DNA of 35,763 bases, from positions 1 through 35,763 of the IMG/VR virus record IMGVR_UViG_3300031631_000687. One strand, written 5' to 3'. Under the pieces are notes generated by a model that was not told the origin of the DNA, searched no databases, and saw only the letters and a list, made by a program, of their open reading frames with translations. The DNA is from a virus. Within the stretch, counting starts at the first letter, position 1. Each line of letters starts with the position of its first letter. A program made the translations under genes and the position numbers. This document shows, piece after piece, positions 12,504 to 23,993 of the stretch.

Positions 12504-13406
12504 CTACGGGCCGGTCGAGCCCACGATGAGCTGGTACAGGCCGAAGCCCATCTCCCAGCGGCCATCGGCGCCGTGCACCACCTCGTTGTCGAAGAACACG
12601 TTGTCGTCGCTGGTGCTGGCGCGGGCCACCACAGCGGGCTTGCGGCGCATCTGCAGGATGAAGGGCTTCACCGGGGCACCCTTCACGCACAGGAACCAGC
12701 TGCTGTCGGTGATGCGGCTGAACACCTCGAGCTCGGCGCGCTGGAAGTCGGTGTTGGTCGCACCGCCCGCGCCCTGCTGGGCCAGCAGGAGGGTGCGCGC
12801 AGTGGACTCGAGGGCAGGACCCACCACCAGCACCAGCTTGCCGCCCATGCCGAAGACGTCGATGGGGTTGCCTTCGTAGTCCTTCATCTGGCGCAGCTTC
12901 TTGACGGCCGTGTTGAAGGTTGCGGAGGCCAGGGCGCCGGTCACCAGGTTGGACAGGGTGCTACCACCTGCCAGGGGGTGGTCGGCGGCGATGAAGGCCT
13001 TGCCGTCGTAGCAGGGGGCGGTGGCGTCGAAGGCGTTGGCGAACAGCTCGCTCAGCAGCACATCGGGGTGCAGGGCCATCTGCATGCCCATGGCTTCGAA
13101 CTGGGGGTTGAGCAGGCCCAGGCGGTCGTCTTCGTACAGCTCGCGCTTCACGCCGACGGTGAGCTCCCAGGTCTTGTTGGTCAGCGTGAAGTCCCAGACC
13201 TTCATGGCCTTGACCTGACGCTCGCCGATCCACTCGCGGACCTGGGGCAGGCCCAGGATCAGGTCGTAGGTCTCGGCATGGCCAGCGCTGGGCACTTCGG
13301 CGACCAGCTGGGGGTACAGAGGCGCGGCGGCCTCGAACCCCTTCTTGTACAACGCGCGGTAGCCGGTGGCTGCGGCGAGGATTGCGGCTCCATTGAGGAT
13401 CATCAT
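12504..13406 (-). CDS. Major head (capsid) protein, Mu gpT-like
   Basis: A 300-residue protein, near the size of Mu gpT (about 305). The gpT pattern is visible: an N-terminal GYRALYKKGFEAAAPLYPQL, VREWIGERQVKAMKVWDFTL, ELTVGVKRELYEDDRLGLLN, PLAGGSTLSNLVTGALA, and the C-terminal ISDSSWFL-type strand (here ITDSSWFLCVKGAPVKPFIL). It forms the HK97-fold shell. The start has GGAG upstream, and two adjacent ATG codons. A strong hairpin lies just before the gene. Among the neighbours are protease/scaffold and decoration genes, the usual head cluster. Confidence 0.93.
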   Translation of the reverse strand: MMILNGAAILAAATGYRALYKKGFEAAAPLYPQLVAEVPSAGHAETYDLILGLPQVREWIGERQVKAMKVWDFTLTNKTWELTVGVKRELYEDDRLGLLNPQFEAMGMQMALHPDVLLSELFANAFDATAPCYDGKAFIAADHPLAGGSTLSNLVTGALASATFNTAVKKLRQMKDYEGNPIDVFGMGGKLVLVVGPALESTARTLLLAQQGAGGATNTDFQRAELEVFSRITDSSWFLCVKGAPVKPFILQMRRKPAVVARASTSDDNVFFDNEVVHGADGRWEMGFGLYQLIVGSTGP

Positions 13407-13457: not shown

Positions 13458-14744
13458 CTACGCGGAGGGGCTCAGCTCGGTGGGCCAGCCTTCGATGATG
13501 GTGCCCTGGCCGGCGAGGCCCGCGGCGCCGTCGAAGTCGCAGCTGTTGCCGGCGACGTAGCAGCCGATCACGGACACGCCGTCAGCAGGTCCAGGAAGGC
13601 GGCTGATGGCGTCGGCCTCGCTGACATCGCTGGTAGCGGCAGCGACGGTAAAGGAAGCGCCGGCAGCGTTCAGGTGCAGCCAGTAGGCACGCCATTCGCC
13701 CGCGCCGGTGTCCACTTCGCCGGTGAGGTCGAACAGATCGTCGGTGGCGGCCTTGTTGCACATGCGGCCGTCGGCCGTGTAGTTCGTGCCGACGGTGGTC
13801 TTGAGCTTGCCGTCCGTGGTGCCGTCGTCGATGCCCGAGAAGCTCTTGGTCTCGTTCTGCGCCCTGCTCATCAGGGAGGCGACGTCCGCGCTGTTGGCGT
13901 CGGCGTTGGCATCCACCTCGTTGATGGCGGGCTGCAGGCCCGTCTGGTCCGTGGTGGTGAGGTTCGCCAGCACGGTGACCCCGACCTGCGCCTCGAGGGC
14001 GGCAGCGTCGGCCAGCGCCTGGGTGGCGTCGGCCTGGGCCGTGTCGGCGTTGGCGTCCACCTCGTTGATGGCGGGCTGCAGGCCCGTCTGGTCCGTGGTG
14101 GTGAGGTTCGCCAGCACGGTGACCCCGACCTGCGCCTCGAGGGCGGCAGCGTCGGCCAGTGCCTGGGTGGCGTCGGCCTGGGCCGTGTCGGCGTTGGCGT
14201 CCACCTCGTTGATGGCGGGCTGCAGGCCCGTCTGGTCCGTGGTGGTGAGGTTCGCCAGCACGGTGACCCCGACCTGCGCCTCGAGGGCATCGGCGGCAGC
14301 CTGGGCGGTGGAGGCGTCAGCGACGCCGTCAGCACCTGCCTGGCCGGCCGGATCGATGTCCACCCAGCAGGTACCCGCGGTCACCACCTCGGCGATGGTG
14401 CCCACGTAGACGTTGGTGACCGACTTGGTGACGGTCTGGTTGTCGGAGAGGTACACCCGCTCGCCCACATCCGCGGCGGTCAGGCCCGCGCTGGCGACCA
14501 GGAACTGGCCCTCGACCCAGACGTCGGCGTTCAGGGCGGCGTCGGCGCCGCCGGTGTTGTCCACGGCTTCTTGGGAGACGCCGGCGAACTTGAGGCCGGC
14601 GGTGTCGGCACCATCGGCCAAGTAGCCGTCAGCGTCGTAGCAGGTGAGGCAGCCGGCGAAGATGACGGCGGCGGCGGCGAGACCGATGCCCAGGTAGGAA
14701 CCGGAGCGGCGGGCGGTGGAACGGTCGGTGGTGGCGGCGGCCAT
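13458..14744 (-). CDS. Capsid decoration protein fused to repeat-containing fibre domain
   Basis: A 428-residue protein between the protease/scaffold gene and the major head gene, the usual place of the small decoration (capsid cement, DUF2190-like) protein. Residues about 15-135 match such a domain in style: a hydrophobic start, VEGQFLVASAGLTAADVGER and VYLSDNQTVTKS, TAGTCWVDIDP. Residues about 150-295 carry 2.7 copies of a 48-residue repeat with LTTTDQTGLQPAINEVDANA and heptad-like Ala/Asp/Gln. The LTTTxxTxLxxAINEV pattern is common in trimeric fibre shafts. Residues about 300-428 form a beta-rich cap. It is probably a head fibre or ornamented decoration protein. A hydrophobic stretch near residues 20-33, followed by Cys, could also suggest a lipobox, which I consider unlikely. 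Confidence 0.7.
   Translation of the reverse strand: MAAATTDRSTARRSGSYLGIGLAAAAVIFAGCLTCYDADGYLADGADTAGLKFAGVSQEAVDNTGGADAALNADVWVEGQFLVASAGLTAADVGERVYLSDNQTVTKSVTNVYVGTIAEVVTAGTCWVDIDPAGQAGADGVADASTAQAAADALEAQVGVTVLANLTTTDQTGLQPAINEVDANADTAQADATQALADAAALEAQVGVTVLANLTTTDQTGLQPAINEVDANADTAQADATQALADAAALEAQVGVTVLANLTTTDQTGLQPAINEVDANADANSADVASLMSRAQNETKSFSGIDDGTTDGKLKTTVGTNYTADGRMCNKAATDDLFDLTGEVDTGAGEWRAYWLHLNAAGASFTVAAATSDVSEADAISRLPGPADGVSVIGCYVAGNSCDFDGAAGLAGQGTIIEGWPTELSPSA
13899..14288. repeat. 2.7 copies of a 144-bp in-frame tandem repeat
   Basis: Copies run 13899-14042, 14043-14186 and 14187-14288 (partial). The first two differ at only two positions, and the third matches over its whole length. 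Each full unit encodes 48 residues, so gain or loss of units keeps the reading frame. Near identity at the DNA level suggests recent duplication or ongoing homogenisation and predicts copy-number variation of the fibre shaft. Confidence 0.95.
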
Positions 14745-14745
14745 G

Positions 14746-15465
14746 TCAGGCCTCCTTCTTGGAAGCGAGGAACTCCTCGGCGGTCAGGCCCATCTGCGTA
14801 CAGGCGGCCTGCTCCACGTCGGAGAGGGTGGTGGAAGCGGGTTTGGGCGGCTGGCGGCCGCCGAGGCCGGAGGAACGGACGGGCACGCCCGGGGCGGTGC
14901 TCATCCAGGCGAGGAAGCCAGCGCGGTCGCGCTTGATGTGGGACTTGGCCCAGCCCTCGAGGGGCGGGGTGAGCTTGCCTTCGAGGCGGGCACGCTCGAG
15001 CAGCTGGTCGTCGTTGAGCTGCTCGACCTCACCGCCCAGCTTCGACAGCGCGGCGGTGTGCTCGGCCACCGGCACGTAGCCGGAGTGCGAAAGCTCGGCT
15101 TCGAGCTTGGTCGTGGCGTCGTCGGCCAGCTCGGAGGCGTCGAGCTCGAGCTTGCTGCAGACCACAGCGCCCAGCTTGGCCTCGGCGGCCACGCGGGTGG
15201 CGGCCGCCTGGATGTCCTCGAGGCTGGCGTCGGCAGCCAGGCCCAAGGCCGAACAGGCAGCGGTGAGGCGGGCGTGGCCCGTCGAAGCTGCCGTGGTGAT
15301 GTCCTCGAGCTTGGCCGAAGACTCCACACCGAGGGCCGAGCAGGCCGCATCATGGCGGCCCTGCTGGTCGCCGATGGCGCCTTCGACCTGCTCCTTGGTG
15401 GCGTCTTCGGGTTTGACGCCGCCCAGGCCGAGGGCGGCCAGGCAGAGGATGAGGAGGGGATTCAT
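14746..15465 (-). CDS. Nested scaffold protein (Mu gpZ-like) from internal start
   Basis: An in-frame ATG at 15465 is preceded by CAGGAG at the right distance (6 nt), which is a better ribosome binding site than most in this operon. It would give a 239-residue protein identical to the C-terminal part of the protease. Mu (I/Z) and lambda (C/Nu3) both make scaffold in this way. The product begins MNPLLILCLAALGLGG, then an acidic helical region. The start resembles the usual ALGLPEDAT motif of Mu-type scaffolds. Cys residues recur in the ACSALG repeats. Confidence 0.7.
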   Translation of the reverse strand: MNPLLILCLAALGLGGVKPEDATKEQVEGAIGDQQGRHDAACSALGVESSAKLEDITTAASTGHARLTAACSALGLAADASLEDIQAAATRVAAEAKLGAVVCSKLELDASELADDATTKLEAELSHSGYVPVAEHTAALSKLGGEVEQLNDDQLLERARLEGKLTPPLEGWAKSHIKRDRAGFLAWMSTAPGVPVRSSGLGGRQPPKPASTTLSDVEQAACTQMGLTAEEFLASKKEA

Positions 15466-16029
15466 GGCTGGCTCCTGATGGAGGGGTGAAACGCTCGCCA
15501 CGACCGGGACGAGCGTGTCCAGGAAGGGCGTGTTGGTGAGCGCGGCCGAGTGCAGCGTGGTGCCCACGTCCTTGCCGCTGCGCTCATCGTTGTGGTGCCA
15601 GTCGATGACCGGCGAGAGGTAGCGATACTCGCGCTCGAGCAGGTGCTTGGCGGCCTTTGCGGTCCAGTCCTTCACGTGGCCCCACACGCCGTCAGGCCGG
15701 ACCTCGAGGCGGTCGATCCAGCCAGCGGCGGGGGCCGTGGTTCCGGTGAACGGCGCGTAGACGGTCTGGTGCTGGTAGTCGATGACCAGGTCGAGGCCGC
15801 GGGCCGTGAAGTAGGCCAGGATCTGCCCAGCGTCCTGGGGACCCAGCACGAAGGTCTGCAGTTCGCCGCCGCGGGGGTACCCACGCCAGGTGCCGTAGGG
15901 CGCCAGGTGGATGAACTCGGGGGGCTTGCCGTCCTCGCCGATGGACAGCGCCAGCGCGCCCCCGTCGGGAGTGCAGGCCATCAGGCCCTCGGGCGATGAG
16001 GCGAGCACCGCTTGCAAGGTGGGGATCAT
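14746..16029 (-). CDS. Prohead protease with C-terminal scaffold (Mu gpI-like)
   Basis: A 427-residue protein of the Mu I protease family. The N-terminal protease domain (about residues 1-180) shows VIDYQHQT (H87), AAGWIDRLEV, WGHVKDWTAKAAKHLLERE, RYLSPV (S139) and SAALTNTPFLDTL, the conserved order of the family; H87 and S139 are candidate catalytic residues. Residues 189-427 form an acidic, helical scaffold domain with repeated CSALGxxxxAxLEDI units. The protease matures the head and removes the scaffold. A second start inside (15465) probably makes the scaffold alone. Located directly after the portal/MuF fusion, overlapping its end. Confidence 0.88.
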   Translation of the reverse strand: MIPTLQAVLASSPEGLMACTPDGGALALSIGEDGKPPEFIHLAPYGTWRGYPRGGELQTFVLGPQDAGQILAYFTARGLDLVIDYQHQTVYAPFTGTTAPAAGWIDRLEVRPDGVWGHVKDWTAKAAKHLLEREYRYLSPVIDWHHNDERSGKDVGTTLHSAALTNTPFLDTLVPVVASVSPLHQEPAMNPLLILCLAALGLGGVKPEDATKEQVEGAIGDQQGRHDAACSALGVESSAKLEDITTAASTGHARLTAACSALGLAADASLEDIQAAATRVAAEAKLGAVVCSKLELDASELADDATTKLEAELSHSGYVPVAEHTAALSKLGGEVEQLNDDQLLERARLEGKLTPPLEGWAKSHIKRDRAGFLAWMSTAPGVPVRSSGLGGRQPPKPASTTLSDVEQAACTQMGLTAEEFLASKKEA

Positions 16030-18395
16030 GCGCTCACTCCCAGGGCTTGCCGCCAGTCCTCGGGGAACCGGGACCAGTCGAACTCGTGGGGCTCCCGCGC
16101 GGGGTCACGCTGGAAGCCCTGGTCGGGCAGAGAGGGCCGGCCGGTGTGCTCGTCCACCGGCATCTCGTCGTAGACCGTCCAGCCCTTGGACTCGATCTCG
16201 ACCGGGGTGTGGGCCGTCTTGAAGCAGCGGCAGGCGTAGCCGTTGGTCGGGTTCCACACGGTCCAGAACGGGTGGTCGTGGGGGTAGACCTTGCCGTTCT
16301 GCGCGGCGTGGGTCACCCGCGAGTCGCGGTCGTCCGGGTTGTTGTACCGGAAGAACGGACGGCGGGCGATGGACTCGGGCCGGCGCTGGGAGCGGTCCCG
16401 GCCCACCGAGTAGGCCGCGCCCCAGTTGGTGCGGAACATCGTGTCGAGCCGGAAAGGCTTGATGGGGCCGAGGCCCTGACGCTCGAGCAGTGGGCCGAGC
16501 TCGTCCTCGAATTCGGCCAGGGTGCCGCCCTTCGCGATGGTCCGGCCGAACAGCTGGTGGGCCTCGTGCAGGGCCGAGCTGCTCGTCCACTTGGCGATGG
16601 TGAAGGCCTGGGCCTTGGCCTCGGTGGCCAACGCATCGAACTGCTGCTGGGTCACCACTCCCCTGCTGGTCCACCATGCCACTGCTTCGCGAGGCGGGAC
16701 CTTGGGGAAGCCTTCGAGCACGACGTCGCCCAGGCCGGCCTGGACTTCGCCCATCAGGCCAGAGGTCAGGATGGCGTCGCCGAGCTCGGGACCGAGCAGC
16801 TCGAGGTCCATCTCGCCGAGCAGCTCGAGCAGGCGGTTGGGCACCTGGCCGATGTCGGTCAGGTTGTGCATCTCGGTCTGCAGACGGTCCACGAACGGCC
16901 GCCAGGTGGCGGCGTGGCCGCCCTGGGTCAGGATGCGCTCGAGCTCGCCTTCGGCCTGGGCCAGCCAGGGGGGCAGGCCTGCGCCGGGAGCCTGGGCCAG
17001 CACCACCCGAGACGAATCCGGGCGGTGCTGGCTGGCTTCTACGGGCGCATCGCTGCCTCCCTTGGGGGTAGCCGTGGTTTCGGAGGCGGTGGGCTCGGTA
17101 AGAAGTTCTTCGCTGCCTTGGGGCTCGCGCAAGCCGAGCTCGTCGCGGACCTGGGCCAGCGGCACCGGCACGCCCATGGTGCGGGCGGCGGCGAAGACCT
17201 TGGCGCGGATCTCCTGGGTCTCGGCCACCACCTTTTCGTCGGCGGCCGGCTCGGTGTCGAAGACGAGCACGGGCACTGGGGCGTCGGGGCCGAAGTTGTA
17301 CTGCACCAGGGGCGCGAGCAGGCCGCGCTTGATGGTGCGGGCCAGCTGCTTGGCGTCGCTCTCCACCAGGTCCTGCCGCACTTCGTTGTGCACCAGGCCC
17401 AGGGCGCGGCTGCCGCTCTTGCCTTCGTCGGTGGTCAGGGTCTGGCCCAGCACTGCCTTGGACATGCCGCGCTCGCACAGCACGATCAGCCGCTCGAAGA
17501 CGTCCACACCGGCGGTGCCGCGCTTGTCGGTCACGATCTCGAGCTTCATGTCTTCGGGGATCACCGCGCTGGCGTCCACCCCGAGCTTGCGCAGTGCGGT
17601 GGCCAGCGCTGTGATGTCCGAAGGCTTCGCCCCCACCGGGTACTTGCCCACACGGAAGGGCGCCCCGAAGATCTCGCCGTAGGAAACCCAGTCCTTCACC
17701 GCGTAGTTCTTGAACAGGTACCACCACACCAGCACCCGGCCGAGGCCAGCTCGGACGGGGAAGCCGGACTTGGCCGCGGAGGTGTGAATCAGGAACCGGT
17801 ACGGGTCGGGCACGATGCCCTTGACCGGGTCGGAATCGTCCAGCAGCCGCCAGCTGTAGGGGTCGGCCTCGTCGGGCACGAACCAGCGCTGGGGGCGGTA
17901 GTCCATGCTGGTCACACCGGCGACGCCGCCACGGTTGTACCAGTCCAGCTCGACCGCGCCGTAGCCCTTGGAGATGGCGTCCAGCAGGGTGAGCAGGCCG
18001 TCTTCGAAGTTGTCGATCTCGTCCAGGCGCAGCTGGCAGAACTCGGCGATCTCTCGGGCCCGGGAGCTGTCGTCACGCTTGGGCGGCACCACCTCCCAGT
18101 CCAGGTTGGCCACCGCGCGCTTGCGGGTGCCCAGCACCGACACCAGGTGCAGGTCCCGGTCCTCGATTTCTTCCAGGAGCTCGCACAGCCGGGCGGGCTG
18201 ACCGTCGTCGGCTTCCTGCAGGTAGGTCGCGATCTTTGCGGGGGTCAGCCCCTTGGCCACGCCCGTGGTGGTGGTGGAGCGGTAGCCGCCCCACTGGGTG
18301 GGATCGCCCTGCACCGTCAGCGGCACCTTGAGGCGCTTGGCGGTGGCGAGCACCATGCCCTGGCCGAACTGCAGCAGCTGGGAGCGCACGCCCAT
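16026..18395 (-). CDS. Portal protein (Mu gp29/DUF935) fused to MuF-type head protein (gp30)
   Basis: A 789-residue protein, chosen to start at 18395 where ATGA overlaps the terminase stop. Residues about 1-490 match DUF935 portals: DPTQWGGYRS, LEEIEDRDLHLVSVLGTRKR, WEVVPPK, AISKGYGAVELDW, YGEIFGAPFRVGKYP, and ERGMSKAVLGQTLTTDEGKS. Residues about 540-700 match the MuF domain: FRLDTMFRTNWGAAYSVGRD, DDRDSRVTHAAQNGKVYPHD, and NPTNGYACRCF. In Mu these are separate genes (29 and 30). The portal is the dodecameric DNA channel; MuF is a minor head protein ejected or located near the portal. No internal ribosome binding site was noticed at the junction. Confidence 0.88.
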   Translation of the reverse strand: MGVRSQLLQFGQGMVLATAKRLKVPLTVQGDPTQWGGYRSTTTTGVAKGLTPAKIATYLQEADDGQPARLCELLEEIEDRDLHLVSVLGTRKRAVANLDWEVVPPKRDDSSRAREIAEFCQLRLDEIDNFEDGLLTLLDAISKGYGAVELDWYNRGGVAGVTSMDYRPQRWFVPDEADPYSWRLLDDSDPVKGIVPDPYRFLIHTSAAKSGFPVRAGLGRVLVWWYLFKNYAVKDWVSYGEIFGAPFRVGKYPVGAKPSDITALATALRKLGVDASAVIPEDMKLEIVTDKRGTAGVDVFERLIVLCERGMSKAVLGQTLTTDEGKSGSRALGLVHNEVRQDLVESDAKQLARTIKRGLLAPLVQYNFGPDAPVPVLVFDTEPAADEKVVAETQEIRAKVFAAARTMGVPVPLAQVRDELGLREPQGSEELLTEPTASETTATPKGGSDAPVEASQHRPDSSRVVLAQAPGAGLPPWLAQAEGELERILTQGGHAATWRPFVDRLQTEMHNLTDIGQVPNRLLELLGEMDLELLGPELGDAILTSGLMGEVQAGLGDVVLEGFPKVPPREAVAWWTSRGVVTQQQFDALATEAKAQAFTIAKWTSSSALHEAHQLFGRTIAKGGTLAEFEDELGPLLERQGLGPIKPFRLDTMFRTNWGAAYSVGRDRSQRRPESIARRPFFRYNNPDDRDSRVTHAAQNGKVYPHDHPFWTVWNPTNGYACRCFKTAHTPVEIESKGWTVYDEMPVDEHTGRPSLPDQGFQRDPAREPHEFDWSRFPEDWRQALGVSA

Positions 18396-20239
18396 CAGGC
18401 AGCCCTCCGAGCGGTGGCCCACGCCGGCCAGGTCGGGCGCAGCGCTTCACGCCAGGCCCCGCTGCCGAACGCGCGAGCGAAGCGGCGGGGGATGTGGATG
18501 ATCTTGTCCGCCAAGGTGCCCTGGCCCACCTGGCGCAGGTACCGGATGGCCATCTCGAGGGTGTCGGGGCCGTCCTTCTTGCCGTGGGGGTACGCCAGCA
18601 GCTGGCGCTCCAGGGGCCTGCAGCTGCCGTCGTCGGGGAAGCGCAGGATGCCCCTGTTGTTCAGCGGAGCCAGGCCGCGGATGCGGATGTCCTTGCTGGC
18701 CTCTTGGCGCTCGATGCGGGTCCAGGCGGGGAACAGCCCAGCGCGGGCGCCGGTGCTGGTGAGCAGGGACTCCAGGATCGAGCCCAGGCTGATGGCCTCG
18801 ATGGCTGCGATGTCCGGATCTTCCTCGGCGTAGATGCCGTTGACCGTCTCCACCAGCAGCTCGGGGTCTGGAATCCGCAGCAGGTCCACACGGTGCACCA
18901 GCAGGTAGCCCTCGGGGGTGGGGCCGCGGACGTTGACCACCGCCTGGAAGTCCGCCTTTCGCTTGGCCGTACTGCGCCCCAGGCTGGGGTCGAAGGCCAT
19001 GGCCTTGGGCAGCTTCATCCCGGCGTAGTCGCTGCGCTTGTAGTAGTTCAGCTCTCGGAAGGGGCGGGTGGCATCCTGGGGTGGGCGGTCGTCGAGCTCG
19101 GAGCCGTAGCTGTCGTCGTTGTACTCCTGCTCGTGGTCCAGCCCTTCGTTGCTCCACTTGGACGGGTACAGCACCACACCGGTTTCGTCCCGGGCGCGAA
19201 CCCGGATGCTCGTCCAGCGCTTCTTGTACTTCTCCAGCTCGGTGAACCGGCACACCACGCAGTCGCCATCGACCGGGGTGCCCACCAGGATGGCCCGGCG
19301 CTTGCGCTCGTCCAGGCCACCGATCAGCGCGCTGTTGACCTTCCTGGCGTTGGTGTTGCGCTGGCCCAGGGTGCGGGTGGTCTCTTCGCTGTCCAGGTCG
19401 TCGCCCAGGGCGAGGGTCGGGCGCCAAGGCCCGTGCTTGCCACCACGCAGGGACTCGCCCATGCCGAAGGCACGGACGCGCACCCCATTGCTCTCCCAGT
19501 CACTGTCCCTGGCTGCGCGACGGTAGCTTCTGGCCCAGTCACCGGACTTGCAGGGCGACAGGTCGCCCCAGTCGTACTTGATGAGCGGGTTGAGCTCGAG
19601 CTCGACCCGGGCTGCAGCGAGGAACTCGGTAGCGGTGGCGCCGTCCACGGCCAGCACCTGGATGTACGGGTCCCAGCAGATGGGGATGGTCCGCTCGGTG
19701 GCGATGAGCTGGTAGACCTGGGCAAGCCAGGCATCCATCTCCACCTGCACCGCGGGGTCCCAGTGGTCGGGTAGCTCGAGCGACGCACACGACAGCTCGC
19801 CCCGCTCCAGCCAGCTCTCGACCTCTTCTTCCATCGCTTCGGTGACGGCGGCGAACATCTCCGGATCGTCGCGCTCGAGGGTGCCGTCTTCCCAGGCCTT
19901 CAAAACCGGGCCGCACACGGCCTTGTAGACGATGGTGCGGAAGGTGCAGACCGTGGACTTGGCATGACCGCGAGGGGCGCGTACGGCGGCGAACTTGGAG
20001 AACAGCAGCGCCAGCTCGAGCAGCACGTGGAAGGGGCTGCCCTCGTCGCGGAAGTAGTGGCTCAGGTAGGTGCGACCGAAGCTCTCCTGGGACACCACCG
20101 CGCGAGCTCGGCGCTGTAGGCGCCGCTTGGAGGTGTCGCCCTCGAACTTGGCACTGCCGGCCTCGGCCTGGCGCTCGAGCGCCTCGATGCGGTCCCAGAA
20201 CCGCTTCTTGGTCAGCCGGCCGGCGGAGCTACGCGGCAT
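18395..20239 (-). CDS. terL: Terminase large subunit (Mu gp28-like)
   Basis: A 614-residue packaging ATPase-nuclease. The Walker A-like motif is APRGHAKST (residues 88-96) and the Walker B-like motif is TLALGDDLDSEE (D280/D281). The nuclease domain begins near FDPSLGR (about residue 420), with AAIEAIS as the next acidic strand. An acidic insert (about residues 110-185, WEDGTLERDDPEMFAAVTEA onward) separates Walker A from the next conserved strand (IQVLAVDGATATEFLAAARV). The enzyme cuts phage DNA, which for Mu-like phages includes host flanks, and drives it through the portal. It is preceded by a small terminase and followed by the portal. Confidence 0.92.
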   Translation of the reverse strand: MPRSSAGRLTKKRFWDRIEALERQAEAGSAKFEGDTSKRRLQRRARAVVSQESFGRTYLSHYFRDEGSPFHVLLELALLFSKFAAVRAPRGHAKSTVCTFRTIVYKAVCGPVLKAWEDGTLERDDPEMFAAVTEAMEEEVESWLERGELSCASLELPDHWDPAVQVEMDAWLAQVYQLIATERTIPICWDPYIQVLAVDGATATEFLAAARVELELNPLIKYDWGDLSPCKSGDWARSYRRAARDSDWESNGVRVRAFGMGESLRGGKHGPWRPTLALGDDLDSEETTRTLGQRNTNARKVNSALIGGLDERKRRAILVGTPVDGDCVVCRFTELEKYKKRWTSIRVRARDETGVVLYPSKWSNEGLDHEQEYNDDSYGSELDDRPPQDATRPFRELNYYKRSDYAGMKLPKAMAFDPSLGRSTAKRKADFQAVVNVRGPTPEGYLLVHRVDLLRIPDPELLVETVNGIYAEEDPDIAAIEAISLGSILESLLTSTGARAGLFPAWTRIERQEASKDIRIRGLAPLNNRGILRFPDDGSCRPLERQLLAYPHGKKDGPDTLEMAIRYLRQVGQGTLADKIIHIPRRFARAFGSGAWREALRPTWPAWATARRAA

Positions 20240-21938: not shown

Positions 21939-23993
21939 TCAATGCGGAAGTGGATCGATTGGGACAAGGACCTTCCCATTGCCCGCGATAATCCAATGGG
22001 CCTGGTCTCGGCCGTCGAAGGCCATCAGTCCTGCCAGGTTTTCCTCGCTGGTGGCGACGAGGATCTGATTCCTGCCTTCGCCAGCGACTTCTACCATCTC
22101 GCCGAGAAGACGTGAAAATGATCCGAGTTTCGCGCTTTGTTGCCGCGGCTCGTCCAGCACGAGCAGTCCTGGATGATTGCCTTCAAACCTGGTGGACGAT
22201 GAGAGCACCGCGAGCCTGTAGGACCATGCTGCTCTTACCGCGTCGCTAGCGGACAGTTCATACTGCAGCTTGCCTGCATGTGATTCACTGAACGGGAAGA
22301 ACGTGTCCTCGTTGACGGCCAGCCCGGAGGACTCCAGTTGGGCCACGCCAAACTCCGCGCAGTAGCGGGGAAACTCGACTGAGAGCATGTTCTGGATGCC
22401 ACGGTCTCTTTGAGATGTGCCTTTTCCTACGGACTTGAGGAGGGCCCGGATCTCAACACCCCGCTCTGCCATCAACTCCAGCTTAGTCTGCCACTCCGCA
22501 GTTGTGTCGATGACCTCCATGGTGACTTTCACCTTTCTTTCCAGGCGCAGAAGTTCTTCAAGCAGGGCGCGGCTCGGCAGCCGGCTGTCGTCATCCAGAG
22601 TGCGACGTAGGGCTTCCGACACCTGTCGCGCTTCGGTGAGTTCGCGGTCCAGAGCGGCGACTACGCTATCAACCTGGTCTCGTCGTCGTACCAACTGATT
22701 ACGGACCACACGATAGACCTGCTCCTTCTGCTTCAGGTAGTCAATACTCTCTCGTTCGTTCAGCACGGGTTCTTTTGCAGACTGCCCAACCAGGCTTCCG
22801 GTCACTCTCTGTTTGCAAGTAGGACAGGTGTCCCGGCTCATATGAAGGTCTGCGTCTGAACCAAGCTGCCTGAGCTTCTCAAGGTCTGCGTACCGCCGGA
22901 GGTCACTGGCGACACCAGCGATACGGCGATCGATGACAGTTCTTTCGCTTTCAATACTCTCCCTCTCAAGTAGCGCCCTTGACAGACGGCCCTCAAGTTC
23001 CTTCACTTGGCGGCGCACTTCCCGGAGTTGGTCCTGATGCTCTTCGCTCATGGCCTCCGCAGTAGGGATCATTTCCTGCCTTAGCTCAACGGCTCTCGCT
23101 TCTGCCGCCGACAGGAACTCAAGGACAGGTCGGTGCTCGATCTCGTCTTTACCTGAGATAGCAGCGAAAGAGAGCGTTGGAGGTGCGAGCCCTCGTTCTT
23201 GGGGTAGTTCACGAGAGATGCCTGCCAGCGTCAGCCCCCCTTCTTCAGCGATGAGGTACATCCTTCTCGCCAGACTACGCCAATCCGATTCGAGCACGGC
23301 CAGTTGACTACGAAGCCTAGCAATCTTGGCTGCATCCTCCACTCTGTCCAGTCGGAGGAGATACTCCATCACCCTCGTGTGCACCTCCCTGATGCGGAAC
23401 CATGTGGGATAACGTCCCCAGATAGGACTCCACCCTTCCTTTTGCTCGACTATGACTTGGGGTAGCAGGCACTCCAGATACAGAGGCACTTCGCGGCCAT
23501 CATAGGTCGGAACCTTTGGGAGGTTTGCCCCCATCAAATCGGCGAGAAAAGTATGAAATCCCTTCTCGCGGGTAGCCGAGCCTGGCTGTCTGACAAAATA
23601 GTCAGAACGGGTTCCAGCTTTCAGGCGATCCAGGCCTACTCCCGACCAAGTCCTGACCAAGTGCGGCGAGGAACCCACGATGTCTCGCCTTACCGACACC
23701 ACCTCGTCCGAGTCTCCGTAAACCTCCAACCACACCCGGCTACTCAATACGGGTACACGGGCGCCCTGGTGCTCCAGCCACGAAGTGACGGCATGAGCGA
23801 ATGGTGGTGTGTTCTTCGGATTCAGCGCTCCCTCAAGCCCCAGCCCGTACATCAACGCCATCACCAGAGTAGACTTTCCGGCGCTATTGTCAGCACGGAA
23901 CACGTTGAGTCCCTGCTGAAGATTCAGATCGACACCGAACAGACCCTTGTCGGTGTCGATCTCCAGGCGCAGCCTTTGAATACGAAGACGCAT
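21939..23993 (-). CDS. SMC/Rad50-like ABC ATPase (ABC-3C-type component)
   Basis: A 684-residue ATPase. Walker A is in VFRADNSAGKSTLV (residues about 32-44), a zinc-hook-like CPTC lies at 390-393 between two coiled coils (about 310-380 and 415-490), a signature-like ELSASDAVRAAW is at 579-590, and Walker B is LLVLDEP (610-616). This is the Rad50/SMC architecture with a short coiled coil. It starts on the stop of the middle gene (TAATG), last in a three-gene set with a nuclease-like protein. ABC-three-component conflict systems have this composition; the ATPase is thought to sense DNA or an invader and license the effector. GC is lower than in phage genes. It could also belong to another Rad50-like defence type. 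Confidence 0.82.
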   Translation of the reverse strand: MRLRIQRLRLEIDTDKGLFGVDLNLQQGLNVFRADNSAGKSTLVMALMYGLGLEGALNPKNTPPFAHAVTSWLEHQGARVPVLSSRVWLEVYGDSDEVVSVRRDIVGSSPHLVRTWSGVGLDRLKAGTRSDYFVRQPGSATREKGFHTFLADLMGANLPKVPTYDGREVPLYLECLLPQVIVEQKEGWSPIWGRYPTWFRIREVHTRVMEYLLRLDRVEDAAKIARLRSQLAVLESDWRSLARRMYLIAEEGGLTLAGISRELPQERGLAPPTLSFAAISGKDEIEHRPVLEFLSAAEARAVELRQEMIPTAEAMSEEHQDQLREVRRQVKELEGRLSRALLERESIESERTVIDRRIAGVASDLRRYADLEKLRQLGSDADLHMSRDTCPTCKQRVTGSLVGQSAKEPVLNERESIDYLKQKEQVYRVVRNQLVRRRDQVDSVVAALDRELTEARQVSEALRRTLDDDSRLPSRALLEELLRLERKVKVTMEVIDTTAEWQTKLELMAERGVEIRALLKSVGKGTSQRDRGIQNMLSVEFPRYCAEFGVAQLESSGLAVNEDTFFPFSESHAGKLQYELSASDAVRAAWSYRLAVLSSSTRFEGNHPGLLVLDEPRQQSAKLGSFSRLLGEMVEVAGEGRNQILVATSEENLAGLMAFDGRDQAHWIIAGNGKVLVPIDPLPH

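Follow-up and report, generated by a model that had tools for sequence, protein, structure and literature searches.

A 428-residue protein encoded on the minus strand at positions 13458-14744 of a 35,763-bp IMG/VR virus record, the whole of which is referred to here as the window, is best explained as a decoration subunit of the capsid that continues into a head fibre, comparable in type to phi29 gp8.5. We give this reading a probability of about 0.78. The protein is composed of an N-terminal decoration base, a shaft built of repeats and a C-terminal beta-rich cap, and the head of the phage is probably studded with short fibres. A sequence-only reading of the window had suggested that the capsid may carry head fibres, and this suggestion is supported by the decoration fold of the base, the slot of the gene in the head module and the virion peptides of its relatives.

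Gene and genome setting

The window carries a Mu-like head module and a contractile tail (sheath, baseplate and tape measure), and its early region encodes an integrase-core domain, a TniB/MuB-like AAA protein, Gam and a GemA-like match. The most likely identity of the phage is therefore a Mu-like transposable myophage. The minus-strand head genes are arranged in the order of terminase, a portal fused to Mu F, an I-like protease, the 428-aa fibre gene and the gpT major capsid protein. The upstream gene (14746-16029, minus strand) encodes a Mu I-like head maturation protease (Pfam PF10123, E 6.4e-62), and the adjacent downstream gene (12504-13406, minus strand) encodes a Mu gpT-like major capsid protein (Pfam PF10124, E 2e-65). 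The open frame of the fibre gene was recovered at precisely the position where the sequence-only reading had placed it, and a strong Shine-Dalgarno sequence, AAGGAGG (14751-14757, minus strand), lies 6 nt 5' of its ATG. The gene is GC-rich, and the long plus-strand open frames that cross it are its antisense frames.

The Portal_Mu and Mu F-like head morphogenesis domains form a single 798-aa open frame in the window (16026-18422, minus strand), whereas they are separate genes in JBD30, JBD25 and FP_Mushu. A 684-aa protein encoded at 21939-23993 (minus strand) matches PHROG 25112, a family of unknown function, and shows weak AAA/SbcC-like similarity; it is not part of the usual Mu gene set.

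The decoration base

Residues 1-130 (14355-14744, minus strand) form a capsid decoration domain with a beta-tulip-type fold. PHROG 1731, annotated as 'virion structural protein, head and packaging', matches the whole domain with an E-value of 3.4e-29. The domain had been called DUF2190-like on the basis of the sequence alone. The decoration part of this assignment is upheld by PHROG 1731 and by Foldseek, but the DUF2190 label is rejected because Pfam gives no DUF2190 (PF09956) match to the base even at E<=1 and PHROG 1731 matches instead. The AlphaFold2 (AF2) model of the base, built from a 22-row alignment, is all-beta with a pLDDT of about 95. Foldseek searches of this model against the PDB retrieve almost exclusively capsid decoration proteins as the best matches, among them those of T1, FCWL1, Pam3, HFTV1, Sf11, XM1 and TW1, with lambda gpD ranking lower, and the top 19 fold matches are all capsid entries together with 6qyy, the N-terminal base of the phi29 head-fibre protein gp8.5. 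The match to 6qyy has a probability of 0.97, an E-value of 0.025 and a TM-score to the target of 0.51. Sequence searches of the base, the shaft and the cap against PDB chains gave no relevant match.

Ninety distinct proteins with a PHROG 1731 domain were found among all loci fetched. A gpT-like major capsid gene lies downstream in 88 of them, and an I-like protease gene lies on the same strand beside 77; in the others it was presumably lost where the contig or locus ends. In purified virions of vB_ThpS-P1 and vB_PeaS-P1, the product of the open frame in the slot between the I protease and gpT, annotated as hypothetical, is represented in mass spectrometry by 86 and 90 peptides, respectively, and gpT in the same virions by 172 and 197 (PMC5488378, Table 1). 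Profile searches assign the vB_PeaS-P1 slot protein to the decoration domain family, and membership by sequence is established for vB_PeaS-P1 alone. Gene numbering runs in opposite directions in the paper and in GenBank, and this protein was therefore equated with ORF35 of the paper through its position between two named neighbours. Homologues lacking head attachment, which the sequence-only reading had named as counter-evidence, were not encountered: nearly all lie by a major capsid gene, and the slot proteins are abundant in the virions of these two cultured phages. Family, fold, gene slot and the virion proteomics of relatives thus strongly support the docking of the decoration domain on the mature gpT capsid. 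By analogy with its fold relatives, the domain would presumably bind there in trimeric form, at threefold or quasi-threefold positions. In the related phage JBD30 the decoration trimer is gp39, which was weighed as a possible homologue and rejected; its gene is a different one, located downstream of the capsid gene, and JBD30 has no gene in the protease-to-capsid slot.

The tandem repeat array

Tandem Repeats Finder (TRF) detects one array in the window, at 13899-14288, with a period of 144, 2.7 copies, 99% matches and a score of 766. Among 60 Markov-shuffled windows the top score was 71, and the period of the best array was below 100 in all 60. The LTTTDQT..AINEV motif begins at residues 166, 214 and 262, that is, 48 residues apart, so that the 2.7 copies of a 48-residue repeat described in the sequence-only reading are borne out. 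Unit 1 covers residues 155-202 (14139-14282), unit 2 residues 203-250 (13995-14138) and the partial unit 3 residues 251-282 (13899-13994), all on the minus strand. A single position of 144 distinguishes units 1 and 2, and the change is synonymous; unit 3 has one difference in its first 96 positions. The 144-bp DNA units are near-identical, as had been noted, which implies that they arose recently, by duplication or conversion. Because of this near-identity, short-read metagenome assembly may have miscounted the copies, and a DNA search for near relatives of the 144-bp array in which repeats could be counted found none. Motif copy number and spacing differ between phages. Gain or loss of near-identical units would change the length of the shaft and leave the base and the tip unchanged.

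The predicted helical shaft

A helical linker at residues 131-154 (14283-14354, minus strand), with predicted helices at 132-140 and 144-166, connects the base to the array, and residues 283-303 (13836-13898, minus strand) form the end of the last predicted shaft helix. The AF2 helices span residues 144-166, 175-213, 223-264 and 267-303, with breaks or dips in confidence at the LTTT turns. The repeat region is thus predicted to be helical with turns and not globular, and the non-fibrous fold that would have spoken against a fibre is absent. The full-length model has a pTM of 0.42 and therefore does not fix how base, shaft and cap are placed relative to one another.

The spacing of LTTT..NEV motifs is 32, 43 or 54 residues in some proteins, in steps of 11, and 41/48, 43/50/57 or 46/53 residues in others, in steps of 7. 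A 468-aa phage protein (L069:2411-3817) has nine LTTT..INEV motifs spaced by exactly 32 residues. Steps of 7 and 11 fit heptad and hendecad insertions in a coiled coil. Within single shaft helices, a hydrophobic periodicity of 3.67 residues is marginal (p 0.03-0.07) and one of 3.5 residues is not significant. Such a marginal periodicity is unsurprising for an alanine-rich coil, yet it is no proof of a coiled coil. A search with the shaft profile against PDB chains, including gp8.5 (3QC7), gave no relevant match at E<=10. The shaft is described as a predicted helix for which the spacings favour a coiled coil and which would presumably be trimeric.

The fibre-style character attributed to the repeat from sequence is also supported. 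PHROG tail-fibre profiles match the repeats of the 428-aa protein, and a tail fibre in locus L003 carries 14 copies of the LTTT..NEV motif. Because the same repeat style occurs in tail fibres, the repeat alone proves no location, and the location must rest on the base and the gene slot. The protein is not assigned to the tail fibres, since its gene lies between the protease and capsid genes and its N-terminus is a decoration domain and not a tail-attachment domain. A literature search for the AINEV motif returned nothing relevant.

The beta-rich cap

Residues 304-428 and the stop codon (13458-13835, minus strand) encode a cap or tip. The beta-rich nature ascribed to it agrees with an AF2 model of residues 295-428 from a 9-row alignment, which is mainly beta with a pLDDT of 87.8 and a pTM of 0.84. 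In a fold search with the cap, no solved fold matches well; a similarity to the Bordetella phage tropism determinant Mtd is weak (probability 0.87, E 0.16) and was not relied on. In other loci, relatives of the cap occur beside major head proteins and, in one case, in a spike-like protein. A 558-aa protein (L015:3581-5257) contains three tandem copies of the cap domain and is encoded directly after a major head protein; it may be a separate multi-domain head appendage. Stand-alone relatives of 162-171 aa are encoded shortly after a PHROG 1357 major head protein in loci L058 and L063, and a further relative forms the end of a spike-like protein in L060, which, like the tail-fibre repeats of L003, counts against the head-fibre reading.

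Other extended decoration proteins

Among the 90 distinct PHROG 1731 members, 23, including that of the window, are extended at the C-terminus by 104-297 residues, with at least six kinds of extension that are unrelated to one another. The proportion of extended members is inflated by one search that was seeded with such a member; an unseeded search gave one extended type only, besides that of the window. The 297-residue extension of the window protein is the longest among the homologues found, and its LTTT..AINEV array occurs in no other of these 90 members. The other extended members (L031, L087-L104, L111, L114, L121 and L155) likewise consist of a base and a C-terminal module, of about 100-150 aa, and are also encoded next to gpT. 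In contrast, their modules are unrelated to that of the window protein and mostly contain one NLSD..ARxNLG motif followed by a beta domain. Those of L031:1750-2598 and L087-L104, with this motif and a beta-looking domain, form a second type of extension that is commoner than that of the window protein. Because members of the family bear unrelated C-terminal appendages, PHROG 1731 seems to act as a hub on which exchangeable head appendages dock.

A similar architecture occurs outside this family. In L006, a PHROG 122 head decoration domain is followed by three LTTT..AINEV motifs in a protein encoded within a head module, just upstream of a PHROG 3116 protein. It differs from the window protein in its decoration family, in its motif spacings of 46 and 53 and in lacking a beta cap. 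A relative in L068 has a decoration domain 63% identical to that of L006 and no repeats. L004 combines a decoration-like sequence with two motifs in a similar gene slot, but its C-terminal end is different, and in L001 the repeats are found two genes after the major head protein. In addition, an open frame just upstream of gpT in another locus (L056:3245-4246) begins like a lytic transglycosylase and continues into the final 92 residues of the decoration domain; it resembles a fusion created by a deletion in a prophage.

Proposed head fibre and alternative explanations

In the proposed head fibre, the beta-tulip-type domain would dock on the mature gpT capsid, and three chains would run outward from each base as an alanine-rich helix-turn-helix coiled-coil shaft of 48-residue units. 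The length of such a shaft, estimated from helix length, would be roughly 10-20 nm, with a small predicted beta domain at the tip. Reversible contact with the host or another surface before tail attachment is a likely function; such contact has been proposed for phi29 head fibres, Hoc and capsid fibres.

The extension could instead be a cementing arm that lies across the surface between capsomers and stabilises the shell. Many decoration proteins do cement capsids, some of them via terminal extensions (PMC7602432; JBD30 paper), and the low pTM of the full-length model leaves the direction of the shaft unfixed. However, a lateral arm would not need about 140 helical residues and a folded cap, tail-fibre shafts such as that of L003 are built from repeats of this kind, and the unrelated extensions of the relatives differ so greatly in composition that they are more readily understood as free-standing appendages than as one conserved contact for cementing. 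A cementing arm is therefore considered unlikely. Still less probable is a functionless product of recent recombination between the decoration gene and a tail-fibre segment, or an assembly chimera at the join, even though the repeats match tail-fibre profiles, are confined to this one member among the PHROG 1731 proteins found and can be misjoined in metagenome assembly. The frame is intact over 428 codons behind a proper ribosome site, the differences between repeat units are synonymous, a decoration domain and the repeat were joined independently in L006, and decoration domains are joined to other modules in 22 further distinct homologues. The gene position between the protease and capsid genes is a frequent location of scaffold genes, and many scaffolds have a helical region like that of the window protein, which would fit an assembly factor, either scaffold or chaperone, that is absent from the mature virion. 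This is the least probable of the explanations considered and very improbable, because the base has a decoration fold and homologues in the same slot are abundant in purified virions.

Relation to known head fibres

The head-fibre reading has its closest parallel in phi29. Like the window protein, gp8.5 has an N-terminal beta-barrel base with a decoration (beta-tulip) fold on the capsid. Its C-terminal stem is a helix-turn-helix coiled coil (PMC6542822; PMC7602432), and the window shaft, predicted to be helical with turns, would resemble it. The phi29 fibre is described as having no terminal sphere on its stem (PMC12796354), whereas the window protein has a near-identical tandem 48-residue array that ends in a beta cap. 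Moreover, gp8.5 is a homotrimer at quasi-threefold sites of a podophage, whereas the window protein belongs to a Mu-like myophage and was modelled as a single chain. The window protein would work like gp8.5, but membership of the gp8.5 family proper is not claimed because the stem has no sequence relation to gp8.5. JBD25 gp37, the RS1 protein, FP_Mushu gp30 and vB_PeaS-P1 ORF35 have the homologous PHROG 1731 domain in the same slot between the I-like protease and gpT, but they are bare domains of 129-149 aa, and the window protein has 297 residues beyond the domain. T4 Hoc, T5 pb10 and the capsid fibres of 7-7-1 and phiCbK are also head-borne parts used or proposed for contact with a host or surface, but their folds and attachment points, such as the pentamer centres in 7-7-1, are unlike those of the window protein. 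Head fibres fused to decoration bases are thus already known from phi29. The literature searched, with incomplete coverage, contained neither a Mu-like phage with a tandem-array head fibre nor a decoration family whose C-terminal modules are interchangeable, and none of the papers listed for Mu-like phages speaks of head fibres.

Few phages are known to have head fibres, whose genes are seldom recognised by sequence. A PHROG 1731 or PHROG 122 base followed by a repeat shaft and a tip in the protease-to-capsid slot provides a recognisable recipe for such genes, and the use of the capsid for host or surface contact by transposable phages becomes a testable question. The decoration base and its modules also offer a natural modular display scaffold. 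More tentatively, and with odds that we put somewhat below even, PHROG 1731 may serve transposable phages as a general capsid docking hub on which unrelated adhesive or fibre modules are exchanged, with recombination between the 144-bp units tuning the length of the head fibre in the phage of the window. If this is true, the phage would have a length-variable head adhesin.
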